A program made the translations under genes and the position numbers. A stretch of 64,000 nt of DNA from Polaromonas sp. (GTDB lineage Bacteria > Pseudomonadota > Gammaproteobacteria > Burkholderiales > Burkholderiaceae_C): assembly GCA_030654695.1 (NCBI GenBank), contig JAURWY010000016.1:62001-126000 (forward strand), given 5' to 3'. The notes below the pieces were generated by a model, which saw nothing but the letters and a program-made list of their open reading frames with translations, did not search any database and was not told the DNA's origin. Of this stretch, positions 34,081-62,475 are shown piece by piece (positions within the stretch are counted from its first letter, which is position 1; each line of letters starts with the position of its first letter).

Positions 34081-35300
34081 CAGATGACCTTGCGTTGGCG
34101 CAGTTCGGTGATGCCTTGCTCGTCCATCTGCAGCACGTCGCGCAGCACCTCAGTCGTGTGCTCACCGAGCAGCGGCGGGGGCCGCTGATATTGAACCGGG
34201 GAAGCGGAAAAACGCACTGGGTTGGCCACTTGCGGAATCTCGCCGACGGTAGGGTGCGGCATGTGCAAAAGCATCTCGCGGTGCACGATCTGCGGGTCGG
34301 CAAAGACCTCGGCGAAATTGTTGATCGGGCCGCTCGGAACACCGGCGGCATCAAAGTCGGCATACCACTGCGCCACCCGGCGTGTCTTCAACACCTCGGC
34401 CAGCAACGGCACCAATATCAAGCGGTGCTTGGCGCGATCAGGATTGGTTTTAAAGCGGCTCTCTGCAGCCAGCTCGGGCAGTCCGAGGCACTCACAGAGT
34501 TTCACAAACTGCGAGTCGTTGCCGACGGCGATCATGATGGGTGCATCAGCACATTCAAACGCTTGGTAGGGGCAAGTGATCGGCGAGGCCGTGCCCAACC
34601 GCGCGGGCTGTTGGCCCGTCACGAGATAAATCATGGCCAAGTGCGACAACGCCGCTACCTGCGCATCAAAGAGTGCCAAGTCAATGTGCTGACCTTGACC
34701 GGAGACCATGTCGCGGTGGCGCAGCGCCGCCAGCACCGCGCTCACGGCGTAAAAACCTGCCGTGATGTCACCCACGGCAAAACCGGTGCGCATCGGCCCG
34801 CCACCAGGCTCGCCGTCAGCATGACCGGTGATGCTCATGAGGCCACTCATGGCTTGAAAAATCGGGTCATAACCGGGCTGGTGACTGTACGGGCCAGTCT
34901 GCCCGAAACCGCTGATCGAGCAATACACCAGCTTCGGATGCGTTGCTTGAAGGCTTGCATAGTCAAGGCCGTAGCGCGCTAAATCGCCGGCTTTGAAGTT
35001 CTCAATCAGGATATCGCTCTCGGACGCCAACCGACGGATCAAGGCTTGGCCTTCGGCTTGCGACATGTCCACGGTGATGGACCGTTTGCCACGGTTCATG
35101 GCGAGAAAAGAAGTGGTCTCGCTGGTTTCAACGCCTGCTGCATTCTTAGCGCGAAAGCCTTGTTGGCGGACATCGTCGCCGCGTCCCGGACGTTCGACCT
35201 TGATCACCTCGGCGCCAAAGTCCGCCAGCATCTGGCCGGCCCAAGGTCCTGAAAAAACGCGACTCAAATCGAGCACGCGCACACCGGTCAAGCAGGTCAT
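34080..35300 (-). CDS. Family III CoA-transferase (CaiB/BaiF)
   Basis: A 406-residue protein beginning VRVLDLSRVFSGPWAG with GAEVIKVERPGRGDD, MNRGKRSITVD, GFGQTGPYSHQPGYD and the catalytic aspartate D178 in VGDITAGFYA. Family III enzymes move CoA from one acid to another through an aspartyl mixed anhydride. It is similar along its length to the CoA-transferase at 35918 but clearly diverged, and a GST gene lies between them. It would activate a pathway acid for the dehydrogenase that follows. Confidence 0.93.
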   Translation of the reverse strand: MTCLTGVRVLDLSRVFSGPWAGQMLADFGAEVIKVERPGRGDDVRQQGFRAKNAAGVETSETTSFLAMNRGKRSITVDMSQAEGQALIRRLASESDILIENFKAGDLARYGLDYASLQATHPKLVYCSISGFGQTGPYSHQPGYDPIFQAMSGLMSITGHADGEPGGGPMRTGFAVGDITAGFYAVSAVLAALRHRDMVSGQGQHIDLALFDAQVAALSHLAMIYLVTGQQPARLGTASPITCPYQAFECADAPIMIAVGNDSQFVKLCECLGLPELAAESRFKTNPDRAKHRLILVPLLAEVLKTRRVAQWYADFDAAGVPSGPINNFAEVFADPQIVHREMLLHMPHPTVGEIPQVANPVRFSASPVQYQRPPPLLGEHTTEVLRDVLQMDEQGITELRQRKVI

Positions 35301-35917: not shown

Positions 35918-37171
35918 CTAGATCGCTCCTGCGGCCTGAAGGGTCGCTATATCGGTGAGGCCGTAGCCAAGTTCTTTCAAGACGTCGCTGGTGTGCTGAC
36001 CCAACAGTGGCGGTGCGGCGCAAGTTTGCAGGGCTGCTTGCTCGAAGCGCATCGGGCTGCTCACTTGCGGCAGATCAACGCCGCTCGGATGCGGCACATG
36101 CTTGAGCATGCCGCGGGCAATGACCTGCGGATCTTTGAAGACATCCGCGACCGAATTGATCGGGCCGCAGGGCACGCCGACAACGTCCAGTGCGGCGATC
36201 AAGGCATCGCGTTCCCAAGTTTCAAATTCGGCGCGCAACAAGGCGGACAAGACAACGATATTGCGAACGCGCTGAGCATTGACTGAGAAGCGTGGGTCCG
36301 TCGCCCACTCGGCTTTTTTCAGCACCTCACACAGCTTGGCAAATTGGCCGTCGTTGCCGACCACCAAAATCACCTGCCCATTGCTGCAAGCATAAACATC
36401 TTGTGGCTGGATGTTCGGATGTGCGTTGCCATTGCGTTTGGGCAGCGTGTCCGAGACCAAATAATTCATCGCCTGATTGGCCAATGAAGCCACCTGCACG
36501 TCGAGCATGCCGATGTCGATGTTGTCGCCCAAACCGGTCTCGTTGCGGCGCGCCAAGGCCGCCAGCACCGACACCGCTGCATACATACCAGTCATCAAAT
36601 CAACGATGGGAACACCCACCTTTTGCGGGCCACCGCCAGGCAAGTTGTCGCGCTCGCCAGTGACACTCATCAGCCCACCCATGGCCTGAATCAGAAAGTC
36701 ATACGCCGGCTGGTCACGGCGGGGACCGGTCTGCCCGAAGCCCGTCACCGAGCAGTAAATCAGGCGGGGGTTGATCTTTCGCAGTGATGCTGCATCCAAA
36801 CCGTAACGCTCTAGTGTGCCGGCCTTGTAGTTTTCCAGCACGATGTCTGCGCGCATCGCCAACTCGCGCACGATGCGCTGGCCTTCCGGCTTGTCTAGGC
36901 TCAGCGTGATGGAGCGCTTGCCGCGGTTCACGGCCAAGTAGTAACCAGCTTCGCGGGTGTCTCGGCCCTCTGCATCCTTCAGGAACGGCGGCCCCCAAGA
37001 GCGGGTGTCATCGCCAGCCCCGGGTTTTTCGACCTTGATGACTTCGGCGCCCAGGTCCGCGAGGATTTGGCCGGCCCATGGCGCTGCCAAAATTCGGCTG
37101 AGGTCGAGCACACGAACATGAGAGAGAGGTCCCGTGCGTGGGTTCAGAGGTTTATCTTCGCTGCTTTTCAT
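35918..37171 (-). CDS. Family III CoA-transferase (CaiB/BaiF), second copy
   Basis: A 417-residue protein with VRVLDLSRILAAPWAGQ, EVIKVEKPGAGDDTRSWGPP, VNRGKRSITL, GFGQTGPRRDQPAYDF and the catalytic aspartate D191 in PIVDLMTGMYA. GDDTRSWGPPF is typical of the formyl-/succinyl-CoA:dicarboxylate subgroup. It is probably an old tandem duplicate of the gene at 34080, now separated from it by the GST gene. An 86-bp gap to the upstream fumarase-type gene could hold a secondary promoter, but none is obvious. Confidence 0.93.
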   Translation of the reverse strand: MKSSEDKPLNPRTGPLSHVRVLDLSRILAAPWAGQILADLGAEVIKVEKPGAGDDTRSWGPPFLKDAEGRDTREAGYYLAVNRGKRSITLSLDKPEGQRIVRELAMRADIVLENYKAGTLERYGLDAASLRKINPRLIYCSVTGFGQTGPRRDQPAYDFLIQAMGGLMSVTGERDNLPGGGPQKVGVPIVDLMTGMYAAVSVLAALARRNETGLGDNIDIGMLDVQVASLANQAMNYLVSDTLPKRNGNAHPNIQPQDVYACSNGQVILVVGNDGQFAKLCEVLKKAEWATDPRFSVNAQRVRNIVVLSALLRAEFETWERDALIAALDVVGVPCGPINSVADVFKDPQVIARGMLKHVPHPSGVDLPQVSSPMRFEQAALQTCAAPPLLGQHTSDVLKELGYGLTDIATLQAAGAI

Positions 37172-45360: not shown

Positions 45361-45388
45361 AAAAAGCCCGCTAGAAGCGGGCTTTTTT
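45361..45388. terminator. Bidirectional rho-independent terminator
   Basis: AAAAAGCCCGCT and AGCGGGCTTTTTT surround a 3-base loop: a strong stem flanked by A5 and T6, active on both strands. It separates barstar from the converging ksgA and overlaps the ksgA stop codon. The 210 bp to its left contain no gene I can support. Confidence 0.9.
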
Positions 45389-46205
45389 ATGACGATTTCG
45401 CCACGACCCCGTTAGCAGACAGCGCCTGCACCAACGCAATGTATTCGGCTACCGGCACTTCTTCAGCGCGGCGCTGGACGTTGAATTCACCGCCAAATTC
45501 GCGCTCTTCCAACCAGCGACCGAGCGTGTGCCGCAATAACTTGCGGCGCTGGCTGAAAGCCACTTGCACCACTTCGCTGAGCAACTTCACCTCCAGCACA
45601 GCGGGTTCAGCATGCGGGACCATGCGCACCACAGCGCTGTTGACGCGCGGCGGTGGGTCAAAGCTTTGCGGTGGCACCAGCAACACATTCTCCATCGCAT
45701 AACGCCACTGCAGCATGACACTCAATCGGCCGTAGTCCGATGTCGAAGGCCGAGCCACCATGCGGTCAATCACTTCCTTTTGCAGCATGAAGTGCTGATC
45801 TTCGATCATGTCGACCACCTCCAGCAAGTGAAACAAGATGGGCGTCGAAATGTTGTAGGGCAGGTTGCCGACGACGCGGAGTTTCATGGCCCCCACGCTT
45901 GCCGCTTCGCGAGTTGCACCGCAGATGTCTGCGGCAAGAGCGCGAAAATCGACTCGCAGCACGTCACCTTCGACCACGGTGAGTTGCGGATGCGCCCGCA
46001 ACTGCTTGGCCAAATCGCGGTCTAACTCAATCACCGTGAGATGTCCAAGCCGCTCCACCAAGGGCTGCGTCATCGCAGCCAAGCCAGGGCCAATTTCGAC
46101 CATGGGATCGCTAGGCTTCGGGTCAATCGCTTGAATAATGTCTTGAATGATGCCGCGATCGGTCAGAAAATGCTGACCGAACCGTTTACGCGCAATGTGC
46201 TTCAT
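45387..46205 (-). CDS. ksgA: 16S rRNA dimethyladenosine transferase
   Basis: A 272-residue enzyme from the ATG at 46205 ([16 protein letters not shown], the family N-terminus). [14 protein letters not shown] binds S-adenosylmethionine and NLPYNIST is the N6-adenine methylation motif. It dimethylates A1518 and A1519 of 16S rRNA late in 30S assembly. It starts 7 bp after surA, within the lptD-surA-ksgA operon. pdxA, often found between surA and ksgA in other proteobacteria, is missing here. Confidence 0.96.
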
Positions 46206-46212
46206 GCGATTT

Positions 46213-47613
46213 TCAATTTCGAAACTCCACATACGCGCGACCGCGCACATCTTGCAGCCACTGGTTGTACGCTTCGTCTACTTTTCTTGCGCGCACGATG
46301 CTCCGAACCGCCTCACGCTGCTCGCGCTCTGACAGCGCTGTCTCGCGCCGCTCCTGCACCTCGATCAGGTGCACGCCAAACCGTGACACCAAAGGTTCGG
46401 ACACCTGACCAAGTGCGAGCTGATTCATGGTTTGCTCGAATTCGGGGACGAACATGCCGGGTGACGCCCAACCAAGATCACCGCCCTCTTTGGCCGAACC
46501 GTCCTGGCTGTTATCACGCGCCAGTGCCGCGAAATCGGCCTGACCGGCAGCGATACGTCGTTTGAAGTCGGCCAATTTGTCTTTGGCGGCCTGCTCGGTC
46601 AGCTGGGGGCTGAGCCGTAACAAGATGTGGCGCGCCCGGGTCTGCATGATGCTGGCGCCTACGGCACCGCGTTTTTTCTCGATCAGCTTGATCACATGGA
46701 AACCTGCGCCACTGCGCAGCGGTCCTGCCAAACCGCCTGCCGACAGGCTGCGTGTGGCATCGACAAACAGCGTTGGCAGCCGGTCGGCTGGGCGCGGTCC
46801 GAGTTCGCCGCCGCTCGCCGCTTCAGGCGAATCAGACATCTCAGCGGCCACCGTGGCAAAGGTCTCGCCCGCACGAATGCGCGCCAATGCGCGCTGGGCC
46901 TTGGCTTGCAGTGCATTCACTTGTGCAGGCGTGGCAGACTCCGGCACCGCCACCAAAATTTGAGCGATATTGAGCAGCTCAGGGCTCGACTGTGCTTGGG
47001 CGTCACGCTCACGCAAAAACTGGTCGATGTCCAATTCGCTCACTTTGACCCGTGCGTCGACTTCACGTTCGCGCAGCCGCGCCAACGTCAACTCGTCGCG
47101 CAAGTCGGCCCGAAAACGCAAGTAATCCATGCCATCTGCGGCCAAGCGACTTTTTAATTCATCCAAAGACAGCTGGTTTTGTTGGGCCACGGTCGCGGCC
47201 GCTTGATCGACGGCGGCCTCATCCGGACGCACCGCTAGCTCACGCGCCAGTTGCAGCTGCGCACGTTCGATGATCAAACGTTCCAAAACCTCGCGCGCAA
47301 GCTGGTCGCGCGGCGGCACAGTCCCCTGCCGCGACAGTTGCTGCTCGATGCGGACCAAGCGGGTTTGCACATCATTGTTGGTGATGGGCTCTGAGTTAAC
47401 CACCGCGACGATGAAGTCCCCCGGGGGAGCTTGCGGCCCCGCATCAACTGGCATGGCCAAGCTGGGCGCCTTGGTGGCGCTTGGAAGACGCAAGGTTTGC
47501 GCATTCACCGGCAGCACAGCAGCCAGTGTCAGCGCCACCACGAGTCCGCACAGGACCAGCGAGCTCCGTAGAAAGAGCTGGCTGAAGTCGAAGGAGGAAA
47601 AGTGCTTAGTCAT
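46213..47613 (-). CDS. surA: Periplasmic chaperone/peptidyl-prolyl isomerase SurA
   Basis: From the ATG at 47613 the protein has 466 residues: signal peptide ([15 protein letters not shown]), an N-terminal chaperone domain ([18 protein letters not shown]), and two parvulin domains, of which the second is more typical ([20 protein letters not shown] and [16 protein letters not shown]). SurA escorts outer-membrane proteins, LptD among them, across the periplasm. The start overlaps the end of lptD by 8 bp; a longer reading frame upstream lies inside lptD. Confidence 0.95.
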
Positions 47614-50157: not shown

Positions 50158-51378
50158 ATGACCCCTTCTAGTTCAAGTGCACCCAAACCCACTGGCGATG
50201 TAACACCCGCCGCTTCCGCCATCGTCTGGAGCGATCCAGCGCGGGCCGCCGCCTTTGCAAAGTGGCTGTCCGCCACCAGTGCCGCATGCCAGCTAGACCC
50301 CGGGACGCTGCGCCTAGCCTCGGCAGACGCCAGCTTCCGGCGCTACTTCCGGATTGACCAAAGCGCGGGCAGCTGCATCATCATGGACGCACCACCTTCG
50401 CAGGAAGACTGCGCGCCCTTCGTCAAAGTGGCCGAGCTGATGGCGCAAGCCGGACTGAATGCGCCGCGTGTGCTGGCCTGGGATCAGGCGCAAGGCTTCA
50501 TGCTGCTGACGGATCTGGGCTCGCAAACCATGATGGAGGTCATCAAGCAGCAAGGTTCACTGGACATCGTGCCGCAAAACGGGCAACTCATTCACCAGCT
50601 GTACATGAATGCGGTAGATGCTTTGATTCAATGGCAGCTGTCTTCACGGCCCGATGTGTTACCGGCCTATGACGACGCCCTGCTATCGCGCGAACTGGCG
50701 TTGTTCCCGGACTGGTACATCGCCCAACACCGCGGCATCGCGATAGACAACGCTCTCCAAGAAAAGCTGGCTGGTTTTTTTGCACAAATCAAAGCCAGCA
50801 ATTTGAATTCGCTGGGTGGCGCGCGCGTCTTTGTGCACCGGGACTTCATGCCTAGGAATCTAATGGCCCCCACGCTCCCCACTGCGTGTGGTTCGCTGCC
50901 CCCTCAAGGGGCTAATTTTCCTTGGGGCGGCCCTGCGGAAAATTTCATCCCCGCAAAATCGATCGAGCATCACCCCACGCTTGGCGTATTAGATTTCCAG
51001 GACGCCGTCTACGGCCCGATCACGTACGACATCGCCAGTCTGATGCGCGACGCTTTTTTGAGCTGGGATGAAGAGTTCGTCATCGACATCACCATCCGTT
51101 ATTGGCAAAAAGCGCGCAAGGCCGGCTTGCCGGTGGGCGATGACTTCGGCGAGTTTTACCGCGCTGTGGAGTGGATGGGTCTGCAACGGCACCTGAAAAT
51201 CCTCGGCATTTTTGCGCGCCTGACTCTGCGCGACGGCAAGCCGCAGTACTTGGCAGATACGCCGCGCTTCATCAAGTACGCCCGCAGCACCGCCTCGCGT
51301 TACCGCCAACTCGGACCGTTGATGGTCTTGCTCGACGAGATTGAAGGCAACGAAACCCGCATCGGATACACCTTTTAA
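50158..51378 (+). CDS. amgK: Amino-sugar kinase AmgK with a repeat-derived insertion
   Basis: A 406-residue aminoglycoside-phosphotransferase-fold kinase. SADASFRRYFR is near residue 55; VFVHRDFMPRNLM is the catalytic loop near 223-235 and LDFQDAVYGPITYD the metal-binding motif. AmgK phosphorylates N-acetylmuramate at C1 in cell-wall recycling. Between these two motifs, where relatives have a turn of about six residues, sit some 40 residues encoded by a repeat (50867-50986) that also occurs in metX. Whether this copy is still active is open, as the insertion is next to the active site. The gene is divergent from lptD and its stop overlaps rsmE by one base. Confidence 0.9.
   Translation: MTPSSSSAPKPTGDVTPAASAIVWSDPARAAAFAKWLSATSAACQLDPGTLRLASADASFRRYFRIDQSAGSCIIMDAPPSQEDCAPFVKVAELMAQAGLNAPRVLAWDQAQGFMLLTDLGSQTMMEVIKQQGSLDIVPQNGQLIHQLYMNAVDALIQWQLSSRPDVLPAYDDALLSRELALFPDWYIAQHRGIAIDNALQEKLAGFFAQIKASNLNSLGGARVFVHRDFMPRNLMAPTLPTACGSLPPQGANFPWGGPAENFIPAKSIEHHPTLGVLDFQDAVYGPITYDIASLMRDAFLSWDEEFVIDITIRYWQKARKAGLPVGDDFGEFYRAVEWMGLQRHLKILGIFARLTLRDGKPQYLADTPRFIKYARSTASRYRQLGPLMVLLDEIEGNETRIGYTF
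50867..50986 (+). repeat. In-frame palindromic repeat, copy in amgK (120 bp)
   Basis: It begins CCCCCACGCT and ends CCCCACGCTTGGCG, so the two ends are direct repeats. The middle holds GCTGCCCCCTCAAGGGGC and CCTTGGGGCGGCCC. The metX copy (58444-58542, opposite strand) shares all these blocks in the same order. Length 120 bp is 40 codons, and it is read in the same frame as the metX copy (APTL, then LPPQGANFPWG). Confidence 0.85.
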
Positions 51379-57431: not shown

Positions 57432-58040
57432 TCAAGCGCGTTGCACCTTGAAGACCGCCCGGCTGGCGCGTGCGTTTGGCCAAAAGCGTATTTCTTCGCC
57501 GTCTTGCAGACCAAATTGGTCGAGAATTTTCAGGTGATTGCTCAAGGCCAAGGCCCGGAAATCTTGCAAGGTCCCGACCCGAATGTTCGGCGTGTCGTAC
57601 CACTGGTATGGCAAGACCTTGGTCACCGGCATGCGACCCCGCAGCACCGCCAAACGGTTCGGCCAATGGCCAAAATTAGGAAAAGCAACGATGCCCAAGC
57701 GACCGACACGGGCGGTTTCGCGCAGCATGACTTCAGCGTTGTGCAGATGTTGCAGCGTGTCAATTTGCAGCACCACATCGAACGAGCGGTCGCCGAACAG
57801 CGCCAAGCCTTCTTCAAGGTTGAGCTGAATCACATTCACGCCGCGCTCGACACAGGCCTGCACATTGGCATCGTCAATCTCGACGCCGTAACCCGAGCAG
57901 CCACGTTCGCGGATCAAATGCGCCAGCAACTCCCCCGTGCCGCAACCGAGGTCCAACACCCGCGAACCGTGTGGCACCAAGCGGGCAATCGACAGCAAGT
58001 CCGGCGAGCTTTCTTTCAAGACTTTGGACGGCAAGTTCAT
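57432..58040 (-). CDS. metW: Methionine biosynthesis protein MetW
   Basis: A 202-residue methyltransferase-fold protein with the S-adenosylmethionine loop [15 protein letters not shown] near residue 30, followed by GYGVEIDD and the family motif [11 protein letters not shown]. In proteobacteria metW follows metX and is needed, with it, for homoserine acylation activity. Its ATG overlaps the metX stop by 4 bp. Confidence 0.94.
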
Positions 58041-59278
58041 ACGGCCACCTTGCTGTTGAAGTAGGCGCGAACCACGCCCAAGTAACGCGCATCTTCAAGC
58101 AAGAAGGCATCGTGCCCGTGCGGTGCGTCAATTTCGGCGTAGCTGACGTCGCGCTGGTTGTCGAGCAAGGCCTTGACGATTTCCCGGCTGCGGGCTGGTG
58201 AAAAGCGCCAGTCCGTGGTGAAACTGACCAACAAGAACTTTGCGCTGGCCTTGGCCAAGGCCAGACTCAGGTTGCCGCCGTGCGCACTGGCGGGGTCAAA
58301 GTAATCCAGCGCGCGGGTGATCAGCAAATACGTGTTGGCATCGAAGTACTCGCTGAATTTGTCGCCCTGGTAGCGCAAATAACTTTCGATCTGAAACTCG
58401 ACGTCTTGCGTTGAATACTTGAACGGGGACGCAGCTTGCGCAGCGCCAAGCGTGGGGGCTAAGGTTTCCTCGCCGGGCCGCCCCAAGGGAAAAGGCGCCC
58501 CCTCGGGGGGCAGCGTAGTACGCGAAGCGACGAGCGTGGGGGCTAATTGTCGGCCAAACTTTTCATTCATCACATCGTCGCTGAGATAAGTGATGTGACC
58601 AATCATGCGAGCAATGCGCAAGCCGCGTTTAGGCAACACGCCGTAGCGGTAAAAATGCCCACCGTGAAAGTCCGGATCGGTCGTGATCGCGCGTCGCGCC
58701 ACTTCGTTGAAGGCGATGTTTTCAGCGTTCAGATTCGGCGCGCTGGCCACCACTACGGCGTGCCGCACACGATCGGGGTAGCGCAGCGTCCAGGCCAGTG
58801 CCTGCATGCCACCCAGACTGCCGCCCATCACGGCGGCCAAGGTCTGAATACCCAAAGCGTCCAGCAATCTAGCTTGCGCGTCGACCCAGTCTTCGACGGT
58901 GACCACCGGGAAGTCAGCGCCGTAAACTTCTTGCGTGTCCGGGTTGATTTGCATCGGCCCGGTGGAGCCGAAGCAAGAACCGAGGTTGTTGACACCAATG
59001 ACGAAAAAGCGGTCGGTATCGACCGACTTGCCGGGCCCGATCATGCTGTCCCACCAGCCTTCGGACTTGGCTTTGGCCTGACCCGATTCGTCGAGGTAGA
59101 CACCCGCCACATGGTGCGAGGCATTGAGCGCGTGGCAAATCAAAACGCCATTCGACTTGTCGGCGTTGAGCACGCCGTACGTCTCATAGCTCAAGTCGTA
59201 AGCGCGTATCGACGCGCCGCTTTGCAGCGGTAATACGTCTTTGAAATGCATGGTCAGCGGTGCTGCGACTAAGGTCAA
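58037..59278 (-). CDS. metX: Homoserine O-acyltransferase MetX with a repeat-derived insertion
   Basis: From a TTG at 59278 behind AGGTGA the enzyme has 413 residues, beginning [12 protein letters not shown], a good match to the family N-terminus; the ATG at 59251 would remove nine. It is an alpha/beta-hydrolase with the nucleophile in [12 protein letters not shown], Asp in TTDWRFSPA and His in DAPHGHDAF. It acylates homoserine in methionine synthesis. About residues 246-278 ([20 protein letters not shown] onward) are encoded by the same repeat as in amgK and sit between KFGRQL and the conserved [13 protein letters not shown]. The lid insertion is in a surface position, so activity is likely kept. 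Confidence 0.94.
58444..58542 (-). repeat. In-frame palindromic repeat, copy in metX (99 bp)
   Basis: On the metX coding strand it begins CCCCCACGCTCGTCG and ends CCCCCACGCTTGGCG, direct terminal repeats, with the palindrome GCCCCCCGAGGGGGC and CCCTTGGGGCGGCCC between. It is 33 codons long, with no stop in this frame. It is the cleaner of the two copies. Confidence 0.87.
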
Positions 59279-59301
59279 ATAATCACCTGCATAAAAATCG
59301 A

Positions 59302-59331
59302 AACCCGGCGTCGCCAAAGCGAATCCGGGTT
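59302..59331 (-). promoter_or_regulatory. Hairpin followed by a U-rich run in the metX leader
   Basis: On the transcript strand AACCCGG and CCGGGTT close a stem with an inner TCGC/GCGA pairing, followed directly by TTTCGATTTTT and then the metX ribosome-binding site and TTG start. This has the look of a transcription attenuator. No known SAM or SAH riboswitch pattern was recognised around it. Confidence 0.4.
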
Positions 59332-62001: not shown

Positions 62002-62475
62002 ATGGGCAACAAACTATACGTAGGCAACCTGCCTTACTCAGTGCGTGACGAAGATCTGCAACAGTCTTTTGGCCAGTTTGGCTCTGTCACCAGCGCTAAA
62101 GTCATGATGGAACGCGACACCGGTCGCTCCAAAGGCTTTGGCTTTGTCGAAATGGGCAGCGATGCTGAAGCCCAAGCAGCCATCAACGGCATGAACGGTC
62201 AGCCTTTGGGCGGCCGTAGCGTTGTGGTTAACGAAGCCCGTCCCATGGAAGCACGCCCACCACGCACAGGTGGCGGCGGCTTCGGCGGCGGCGATCGTTC
62301 AGGTGGTGGCGGCTACGGTGGTGGTGGTGGCGATCGTTCAGGCGGTGGCGGCTACGGTGGTGGTGGTGGCGATCGTTCAGGCGGTGGCGGCTACGGTGGT
62401 GGTGGTGGCGGCCGTTCAGGTGGTGGCGGCTACGGCGGCGGTGGTGGCGGTGGCGGTGGACGCGGCGGCTACTAA
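62002..62475 (+). CDS. Glycine-rich RRM RNA-binding protein
   Basis: A 157-residue protein. Residues 1-80 form one RNA-recognition motif with RNP2 (KLYVGNLPY) and RNP1 (SKGFGFVEM). The C-terminal half is a glycine tail with four copies of the 13-residue unit G-D/G-RSGGGGYGGGG, an RGG-like low-complexity region. Such bacterial proteins bind single-stranded RNA and are often cold-induced. GAGGAGTCC precedes the ATG. A strong terminator follows. Confidence 0.95.
   Translation: MGNKLYVGNLPYSVRDEDLQQSFGQFGSVTSAKVMMERDTGRSKGFGFVEMGSDAEAQAAINGMNGQPLGGRSVVVNEARPMEARPPRTGGGGFGGGDRSGGGGYGGGGGDRSGGGGYGGGGGDRSGGGGYGGGGGGRSGGGGYGGGGGGGGGRGGY
62290..62445 (+). repeat. Four tandem 39-bp coding repeats
   Basis: Units start at 62290, 62329, 62368 and 62407. 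Each begins GGCGATCGTTCAGG (the last has GGCCGTTCAGG with GAT changed to GGC) and encodes 13 residues. The first three are almost identical in DNA, so copy number could change by recombination or slippage. Confidence 0.9.

Follow-up and report, generated by a model that had tools for sequence, protein, structure and literature searches.

A block of DNA within metX raises the question of how one repeat can come to lie, in the same reading frame, inside unrelated enzymes. We analyzed a stretch of 64,000 nucleotides from Polaromonas sp. (the window), in which an earlier note had marked a 99-bp block at 58444–58542 of metX, matched it to a block in amgK through four shared words in a common order, and proposed a mobile, peptide-coding repeat that is selected to be translatable. 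All four words were found in both genes in the stated order, and both copies are read in the frame that we call S1, the sense frame reading GCC CCC ACG (APTL); A0 designates the frame used on the opposite strand. Copies in the window were scored by local alignment to a composite core of the repeat family, with 20 shuffled windows as the control. The blocks in metX and amgK scored 131 and 60, respectively, against a best shuffled score of 32. Thus, they are indeed copies of the same repeat.

The metX gene (58037–59317, minus strand) encodes a homoserine O-succinyl/acetyltransferase of 426 amino acids (NCBIfam NF047916; 619.8 bits, cut-off 560), whose translation carries the insert. The full core of the repeat occupies 58471–58543 on the minus strand, sense to metX and in frame S1, and a second, shortened copy lies in tandem at 58430–58459 on the same strand and in the same frame. 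The score of the latter, 35, barely exceeds the shuffled maximum and is weak alone, but its register fits, as it starts 84 nt past the first copy (58459 versus 58543), the commonest spacing in the family. The insert therefore reaches slightly beyond the start proposed in the note, to about 58430. The amgK gene (50158–51378, plus strand) encodes an N-acetylmuramate/N-acetylglucosamine kinase of 406 amino acids, with a core copy at 50866–50938 (plus strand, sense, frame S1) flanked by the motifs HRDFMPRNLM and LGVLDFQDA. The family profile (NCBIfam NF045759) matches AmgK in two stretches with 348.5 bits (E 3.2e-104), below its cut-off of 550, and the insert probably lowers this score; a relative at 92% identity has the same insert. 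A partial copy (core positions 1–23; 45889–45911, plus strand; score 41 versus the shuffled maximum of 32) lies antisense, in frame A0, within rsmA/ksgA (45387–46250, minus strand), a 16S rRNA dimethyltransferase gene of 287 codons assigned from its translation and from a relative with the same insert motif, locus L452 of genome G534, which is TIGR00755 ksgA. At this site, G534 has a longer antisense A0 copy, and the copy in the window is a relic. The repeat is thus present in three genes within 13 kb.

No model of the repeat emerged when the insert peptides were scanned with NCBIfam and Pfam and 58300–58700 with Rfam, and we rejected a known protein or RNA family for the insert on these results. 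A predicted structure intended to place the MetX insert in three dimensions was discarded at a mean pLDDT of 53. Elsewhere in the window, 62269–62463 consists of 39-nt tandem repeats that are glycine-rich when translated in the frame 62002–62475, and 34491–35283 and 36326–37118, which match each other in two pairs of segments offset by 1835 nt and 73–78% identical, are perhaps duplicated neighbor genes.

The key check named in the note was a search for more copies, which turned out to be abundant. The genome of the window gave 12 pattern matches and none with the reversed pattern, and 168 of 200 genomes of the family matched at E ≤0.001, with only about 4 candidates scored per genome. Across the order, 24 of 300 genomes matched; 9 belong to the same family and 15 to other families, where many matches begin only at core position 29. 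Genome G534, which we take to be Polaromonas JS666, gave 117 pattern matches and 0 in the reversed control. The core is 72–77 nt long with a mean GC content of 77% (range 64–85%, 203 near-full cores), and tandem copies are spaced 81–91 nt apart in 33 of 34 spacings, the other being 107 nt; the spacing is divisible by 3 in 11 of 11 in-gene cases (5 loci) and in 15 of 23 elsewhere. Carriage by phages or plasmids was rejected, as the repeat occurred in 0 of 50,697 phage records and 8 of 72,556 plasmid records. We also rejected a linkage to RAYT: none of the 10 Y1 transposase loci scanned contained a copy, and the presence of the transposase does not track that of the element, Y1_Tnp being found in 9 of 10 genomes searched, 3 of which had no element match, and being absent from the remaining genome, G199, which gave 140 first-look element candidates. 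In 9 of the 10 loci (L367–L375), the gene adjoining the transposase, with no repeat beside it, is what we recognized as gltB-like.

Is the insert perhaps an ancestral part of the MetX fold, as the note had allowed? We classed the loop that follows FGR in 81 MetX proteins by peptide motif: 15 carried S1, 9 carried A0, 6 something else, and 51 neither, with a short loop in its place. In the solved MetX structure 2pl5, just 7 residues separate the two matched parts. On a MetX tree built with the loop omitted, the insert requires at least 12 gains or losses, with 11 changes for S1 (8 forced by well-supported branches) and 8 for A0 (5 forced). Thus, the insert is foreign to the ancestral MetX fold. 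The nearest of 80 MetX loci to that of the window came from two Comamonadaceae, followed by Polaromonas. An exact target duplication, which the note had suggested looking for in MetX sequences that lack the insert, was not found in any pair of empty and filled sites: for PurL and AmgK, the junctions of the short alleles within the genus have diverged too far, and what the closest relatives carry are relics.

The same variety of states is seen in other hosts. For AmgK, 30 of 31 loci, all from the genus except L122, yielded the loop, which we take to lie between two motifs of this kinase fold, the catalytic HRD and one that resembles DFG; classed by eye, about 15 carried S1 and 6 A0, 2 had a short relic of S1 and 7 a short loop, and one A0 tandem was among them. 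The PurL loop, translated in 28 of 30 loci after two had missed the filter, with no stop codon interrupting the reading in any of the 28, contained A0 in 12, a short relic (EATSVGA, for example) in 7, other remnants in 2 and a short loop in 4. In the other 3 (L279, L286 and L289), an unrelated repeat (CCCTCTCCC ... GGGTGAGGG) lies in frame in the PurL loop used elsewhere by this element. In MetX, AmgK and PurL alike, the repeat is thus present in some species, in varying states, and absent from others. When 30 proteins from 64 in-gene blocks were scanned, leaving 7 without a family at 1e-30, the hosts named by NCBIfam, many of them housekeeping enzymes, included PurL, KsgA, Fmt, ThrC, ValS, FolC, GcvP and GlnE (two inserts), as well as RecJ, RecQ, RlmI, PEP carboxylase, TrpE, Mpl, PutA and a biotin carboxylase.

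We determined the frames of in-gene copies with a codon model trained on the long reading frames of the loci, which called 447 of 468 180-nt pieces correctly as measured on the training frames themselves. A copy was called internal when both flanks were coding in one shared open frame across it; "not internal" denotes a copy that is not crossed by any one open coding frame, which we read as intergenic, although broken genes may be included. Two censuses were made. In the mixed census, 182 of 189 loci gave blocks, a flank of at least 150 nt was required, and blocks with the same 60 upstream bases entered the count only once; since its loci are for the most part best matches to a single copy, L002, this census leans towards similar copies. 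The second census drew on the single 5.2-Mb contig of G534, where the 100 places listed of the 117 matches made up 88 loci, of which 79 gave blocks; in almost all of these places, the 5′ half of the repeat is intact, and blocks with the same 40 upstream bases were counted once. Of 190 blocks in the mixed census, 133 were not internal, 8 ambiguous and 49 internal, and of the latter, 30 were in A0, 15 in S1, 2 in A1, 1 in S2 and 1 in A2. Among the matches listed for G534, 94 blocks comprised 73 that were not internal, 6 ambiguous and 15 internal, with 9 in A0, 6 in S1 and no other frame. Thus, S1 and A0 account for 45/49 and 15/15 internal blocks. Pooled, they account for 60 of 64 clear internal blocks and for 67 of 78 when the ambiguous ones, which are S1 or A0 in only 7 of 14, are added; in the mixed census, 34 of 38 gene clusters are exclusively S1/A0. 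As to the 4 exceptions among the 49, L204 (A1, P-type ATPase) and L259 (S2) look by eye to be shifted by an indel inside the copy; the others are L351 (A2, PutA) and L250 (A1).

The method has no bias of its own towards these frames. When 600 random insertions of outside-gene copies into genes of the window were scripted, 494 were called internal (S1 87, A0 81, S2 105, S3 84, A1 93 and A2 44), and S1 plus A0 made up 168 of these, or 34%. The probability of 45/49 is 1.5e-17 under a null of one third and 1.1e-15 when the openness of each frame is allowed for. In-gene copies therefore hold their frame far beyond chance, as the note had expected, with the modification that two frames, one per orientation, are used, and that A0 is the commoner within genes (39 versus 21 in both censuses). 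The alternative outcome that it had named, copies mainly between genes and in random frames when genic, came true in its former half, most copies being not internal in either census, but the genic frames are not random.

Open reading frames do not single out S1 and A0. Among 130 near-full cores outside genes, S2 was open in 127, S1 in 126, A1 in 126, A0 in 123, S3 in 106 and A2 in 68, so that the sequence is not kept open in the used frames alone. What distinguishes these frames is the charge of the peptide: the mean for copies outside genes is 0.77 in S1 and 1.58 in A0, versus 2.95 to 4.81 in the four other frames. Cysteine does not set them apart, since S1 is not free of it outside genes (about 0.83–0.86 per copy; A0 0.09, S2 1.10, S3 1.94). 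Inside genes, cysteine is lower, at 0.35 in S1 (23 copies) and 0.00 in A0 (56 copies) versus 0.86 and 0.09 outside (170 copies), a drop that would be expected from selection on the peptide. Orientation also differs. In the mixed census, A0:S1 was 30:15 inside genes, versus an antisense:sense ratio of 28:90 outside (odds ratio 6.4, p 9e-7); in G534, the corresponding ratios, 9:6 and 11:19, did not differ significantly (p 0.2).

Outside genes, the placement of the repeat is far from uniform. Of the 133 such blocks in the mixed census, 90 were sense and 28 antisense to both neighbors, 4 lay between convergent and none between divergent genes, and the rest were unclear; the pattern was weaker among the 73 blocks of G534 (19, 11, 5 and 3, respectively). 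Counted from where the upstream stop codon ends, the start of a sense copy fell at −12 to +3 nt in 85 of 100 cases in the mixed census and 39 of 43 in G534, whereas only 7 of 32 and 2 of 17 antisense copies started there (p 8e-11 and 8e-9). With tandem followers left out, an ATG directly preceded the core (ahead of GCCCCCACG, frame S1) outside genes in 39 of 115 sense versus 3 of 49 antisense copies (p 8e-5), and inside genes in 6 of 18 S1 and 6 of 40 A0 copies. In 37 of 91 cases (S2 23, S3 6), no more than 8 nt separated the S1 stop from the point where the next gene was guessed to start, an only moderate excess over S2 that we do not claim as a finding. The placement behind stop codons could reflect insertion at termination sites, selection for a harmless 3′ position, or translation of S1. 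In some cases, the S1 frame runs on past the element and joins the reading frame that follows (226 and 182 residues), a possible N-terminal extension; in two such cases, the frame joined is prepilin-like by our reading.

The repeat also shows signs of a conserved fold. In an alignment of 59 copies, most of them outside genes, compensatory changes are seen in the hairpins at core 9–32 and around CCTTGGGGCGGCCCGGCG, where 97.0% of cells are paired and 94 are double-changed versus 28.5 in shuffled alignments (0/500 as high), counts that lean towards this structure, since it was picked after viewing the same alignment. Sliding the hairpin partner reduced the double-changed cells to 2 to 13. The central GCCCCCCGAGGGGGC hairpin is nearly invariant and provides evidence neither way. 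A measure of further pair types was unremarkable, 82 of 500 shuffles reaching it; the folding program's own consensus recovered only the central and 3′ hairpins, with a different small hairpin on the 5′ side, and the MetX copy folded as a single sequence did no better than its shuffles (z 0.01). The fold is thus an observation from covariation alone.

From the copies, their frames, the recurrent sites, the covarying structure and the position behind stop codons, we infer a mobile, REP-like element, the copies of which last within genes only where loop and frame make the added peptide a harmless linker, a reading to which we assign a probability of about three in four. Under this explanation, the repeat would be a dispersed, non-autonomous palindromic element of Burkholderiales that scatters through the genome and whose single strand may fold into hairpins. 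Outside genes, it would survive mainly just behind an upstream stop codon, in the sense orientation. Inside genes, a copy would persist only in a permissive loop, with the frame kept and read in S1 or A0, because, as we propose, the peptides read from these two frames are short and near-neutral. After fixation, an insert would grow through tandem steps divisible by three or shrink through deletions that keep the frame, and one loop would in this way come to vary between lineages. Such selection among survivors would explain the frame bias without selection for translating the element. A basic linker is perhaps tolerated more often than is seen, in which case tolerance alone may be too weak, and translation of the element may itself be under selection.

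Such selection could act on a mobile mini-ORF, sense copies of which reinitiate translation behind a stop codon while in-gene copies reuse the frame. The crowding of sense copies at stop codons, the excess of ATG before S1 in sense copies outside genes and the S1 stops close to the next start would all be in keeping with it, but we consider it unlikely: A0, the commoner frame in genes, gets no benefit, S2 is open as often as S1 outside genes, and two thirds of the sense copies there lack the ATG. Moreover, an ATG also precedes a third of the in-gene S1 copies, where no start is required, and may therefore be a border or target motif. We are equally doubtful about an extended version, in which sense copies insert at termination sites, reinitiation there yields peptides of the form MAPTLxASRxALPPEGA, and each orientation has been shaped to hold one harmless linker frame, which enables the element to colonize coding DNA as well. 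The note's interpretation of the element is thus partly supported: survivor selection suffices for the frame bias, and S2 and A1 are equally open outside genes, but the placement behind stop codons and the ATG keep the idea of selection for translatability alive.

The frames could alternatively arise from a target-site preference with a fixed codon phase, and a bias at the left border does exist, often with TG ahead of the core. A model of this border, however, predicts a share of 0.415 for S1 plus A0, or 0.447 with openness added, versus the 0.92 observed (under the combined null, p 3.9e-12 for 45/49 and 1e-8 for the 34 of 38 gene clusters), and S1 and A0 need different codon phases at the left border, so that we find this account improbable. 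Thus, neither stop codons nor target preference explain the frame bias. That the inserted peptide is useful to its hosts, as an adaptive domain or regulator, might be suggested by the many species that carry it in the same loops; since the hosts are unrelated enzymes, the insert occurs patchily and has been gained or lost many times, the peptides erode and differ, and an unrelated repeat occupies the same PurL loop in 3 genomes, we regard this as very improbable. Least credible of all is an artefact of misassembly, pseudogenes or misread frames. Many of the source genomes are drafts, but the same pattern is seen on the single contig of G534, the amgK insert recurs in the relative mentioned above, inserts are flanked on both sides by conserved sequence, and the simulated insertions exposed no bias of the method.

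In common betaproteobacteria, this family allows the same loops to be compared in their empty, filled, doubled and decayed states. This range of alleles makes it testable how a mobile repeat turns into a part of a protein, which loops of central enzymes take some 25–80 extra residues, and how far the chemistry of the peptide, rather than the DNA, decides survival. The inserts may also affect annotation, as with the AmgK of the window, which falls below its family cut-off. The sense copies directly behind stop codons are a separate question in their own right.

The best-known palindromic repeats that code for protein are those of Rickettsia and its relatives. Rickettsia palindromic elements (RPEs) are described as dispersed palindromic repeats lying in frame in unrelated housekeeping proteins, at solvent-exposed places, and for R. 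japonica, each rickettsial orthologue was reported with an RPE insert at the same locus (PMC10969869, PMC3767692, PMC2996958). The present repeat resembles them, and the Wolbachia elements, in being palindromic and in frame within unrelated proteins, a likeness of habit. Unlike what these texts describe, its hosts include free-living betaproteobacteria, its loops vary by lineage, and both orientations are used. GTAG- and CGTC-tagged REPs are, according to a 2013 study, palindromes of 20–40 bp with tags that lie mostly between co-directional or convergent genes, near the 3′ end of the upstream gene, and in some cases within ORFs, the GTAG REPs being associated with transposase genes (PMC3733652). 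Our repeat shares the palindromic nature, the position behind the upstream gene and the occasional location within ORFs, but differs from that description in its longer core of 72–77 nt and in having no copy in the 10 Y1 transposase loci scanned.

The closest relative is the Beta-proteobacterial repeat element (BRE) named by Hot et al. in 2011. As described there, BRE is about 90 bp long (75–91), has a GC content of about 69% (63.7–78.9), occurs in tandem with few bases between copies in Bordetella and Comamonadaceae, including Polaromonas JS666, Rhodoferax, Acidovorax and Delftia, and is most abundant in JS666, with 29 copies; it is usually intergenic, "surprisingly" sometimes wholly within coding sequences, and no function was proposed (PMC3110155). 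The repeat studied here very probably belongs to the BRE family, judging from its size, taxa, tandem habit and abundance in JS666. Its core length and 81–91 nt spacing fit the 75–91 bp unit, its copies are likewise tandem, mostly outside genes and in part inside coding sequences, and it agrees in taxa and abundance with what is described, although we count 117 pattern matches in G534 against the 29 copies reported for JS666, and its GC content is higher (77% versus about 69%), the former figure being for the core only and from other genomes. The text seen of the BRE description contains no analysis of frames, fold, stop-codon position or recurrent loops (PMC3110155). The open-licence literature yielded no use of the BRE name beyond Hot et al. 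and no paper on the reading frames of this repeat family. RPEs and intragenic REPs are already known, as is the closeness of REPs to 3′ ends (PMC3733652). As far as the literature searched goes, what is new for this repeat is the rule of two frames, the variation between alleles at a given loop, the fold with its covariation, and a placement so tight behind stop codons.
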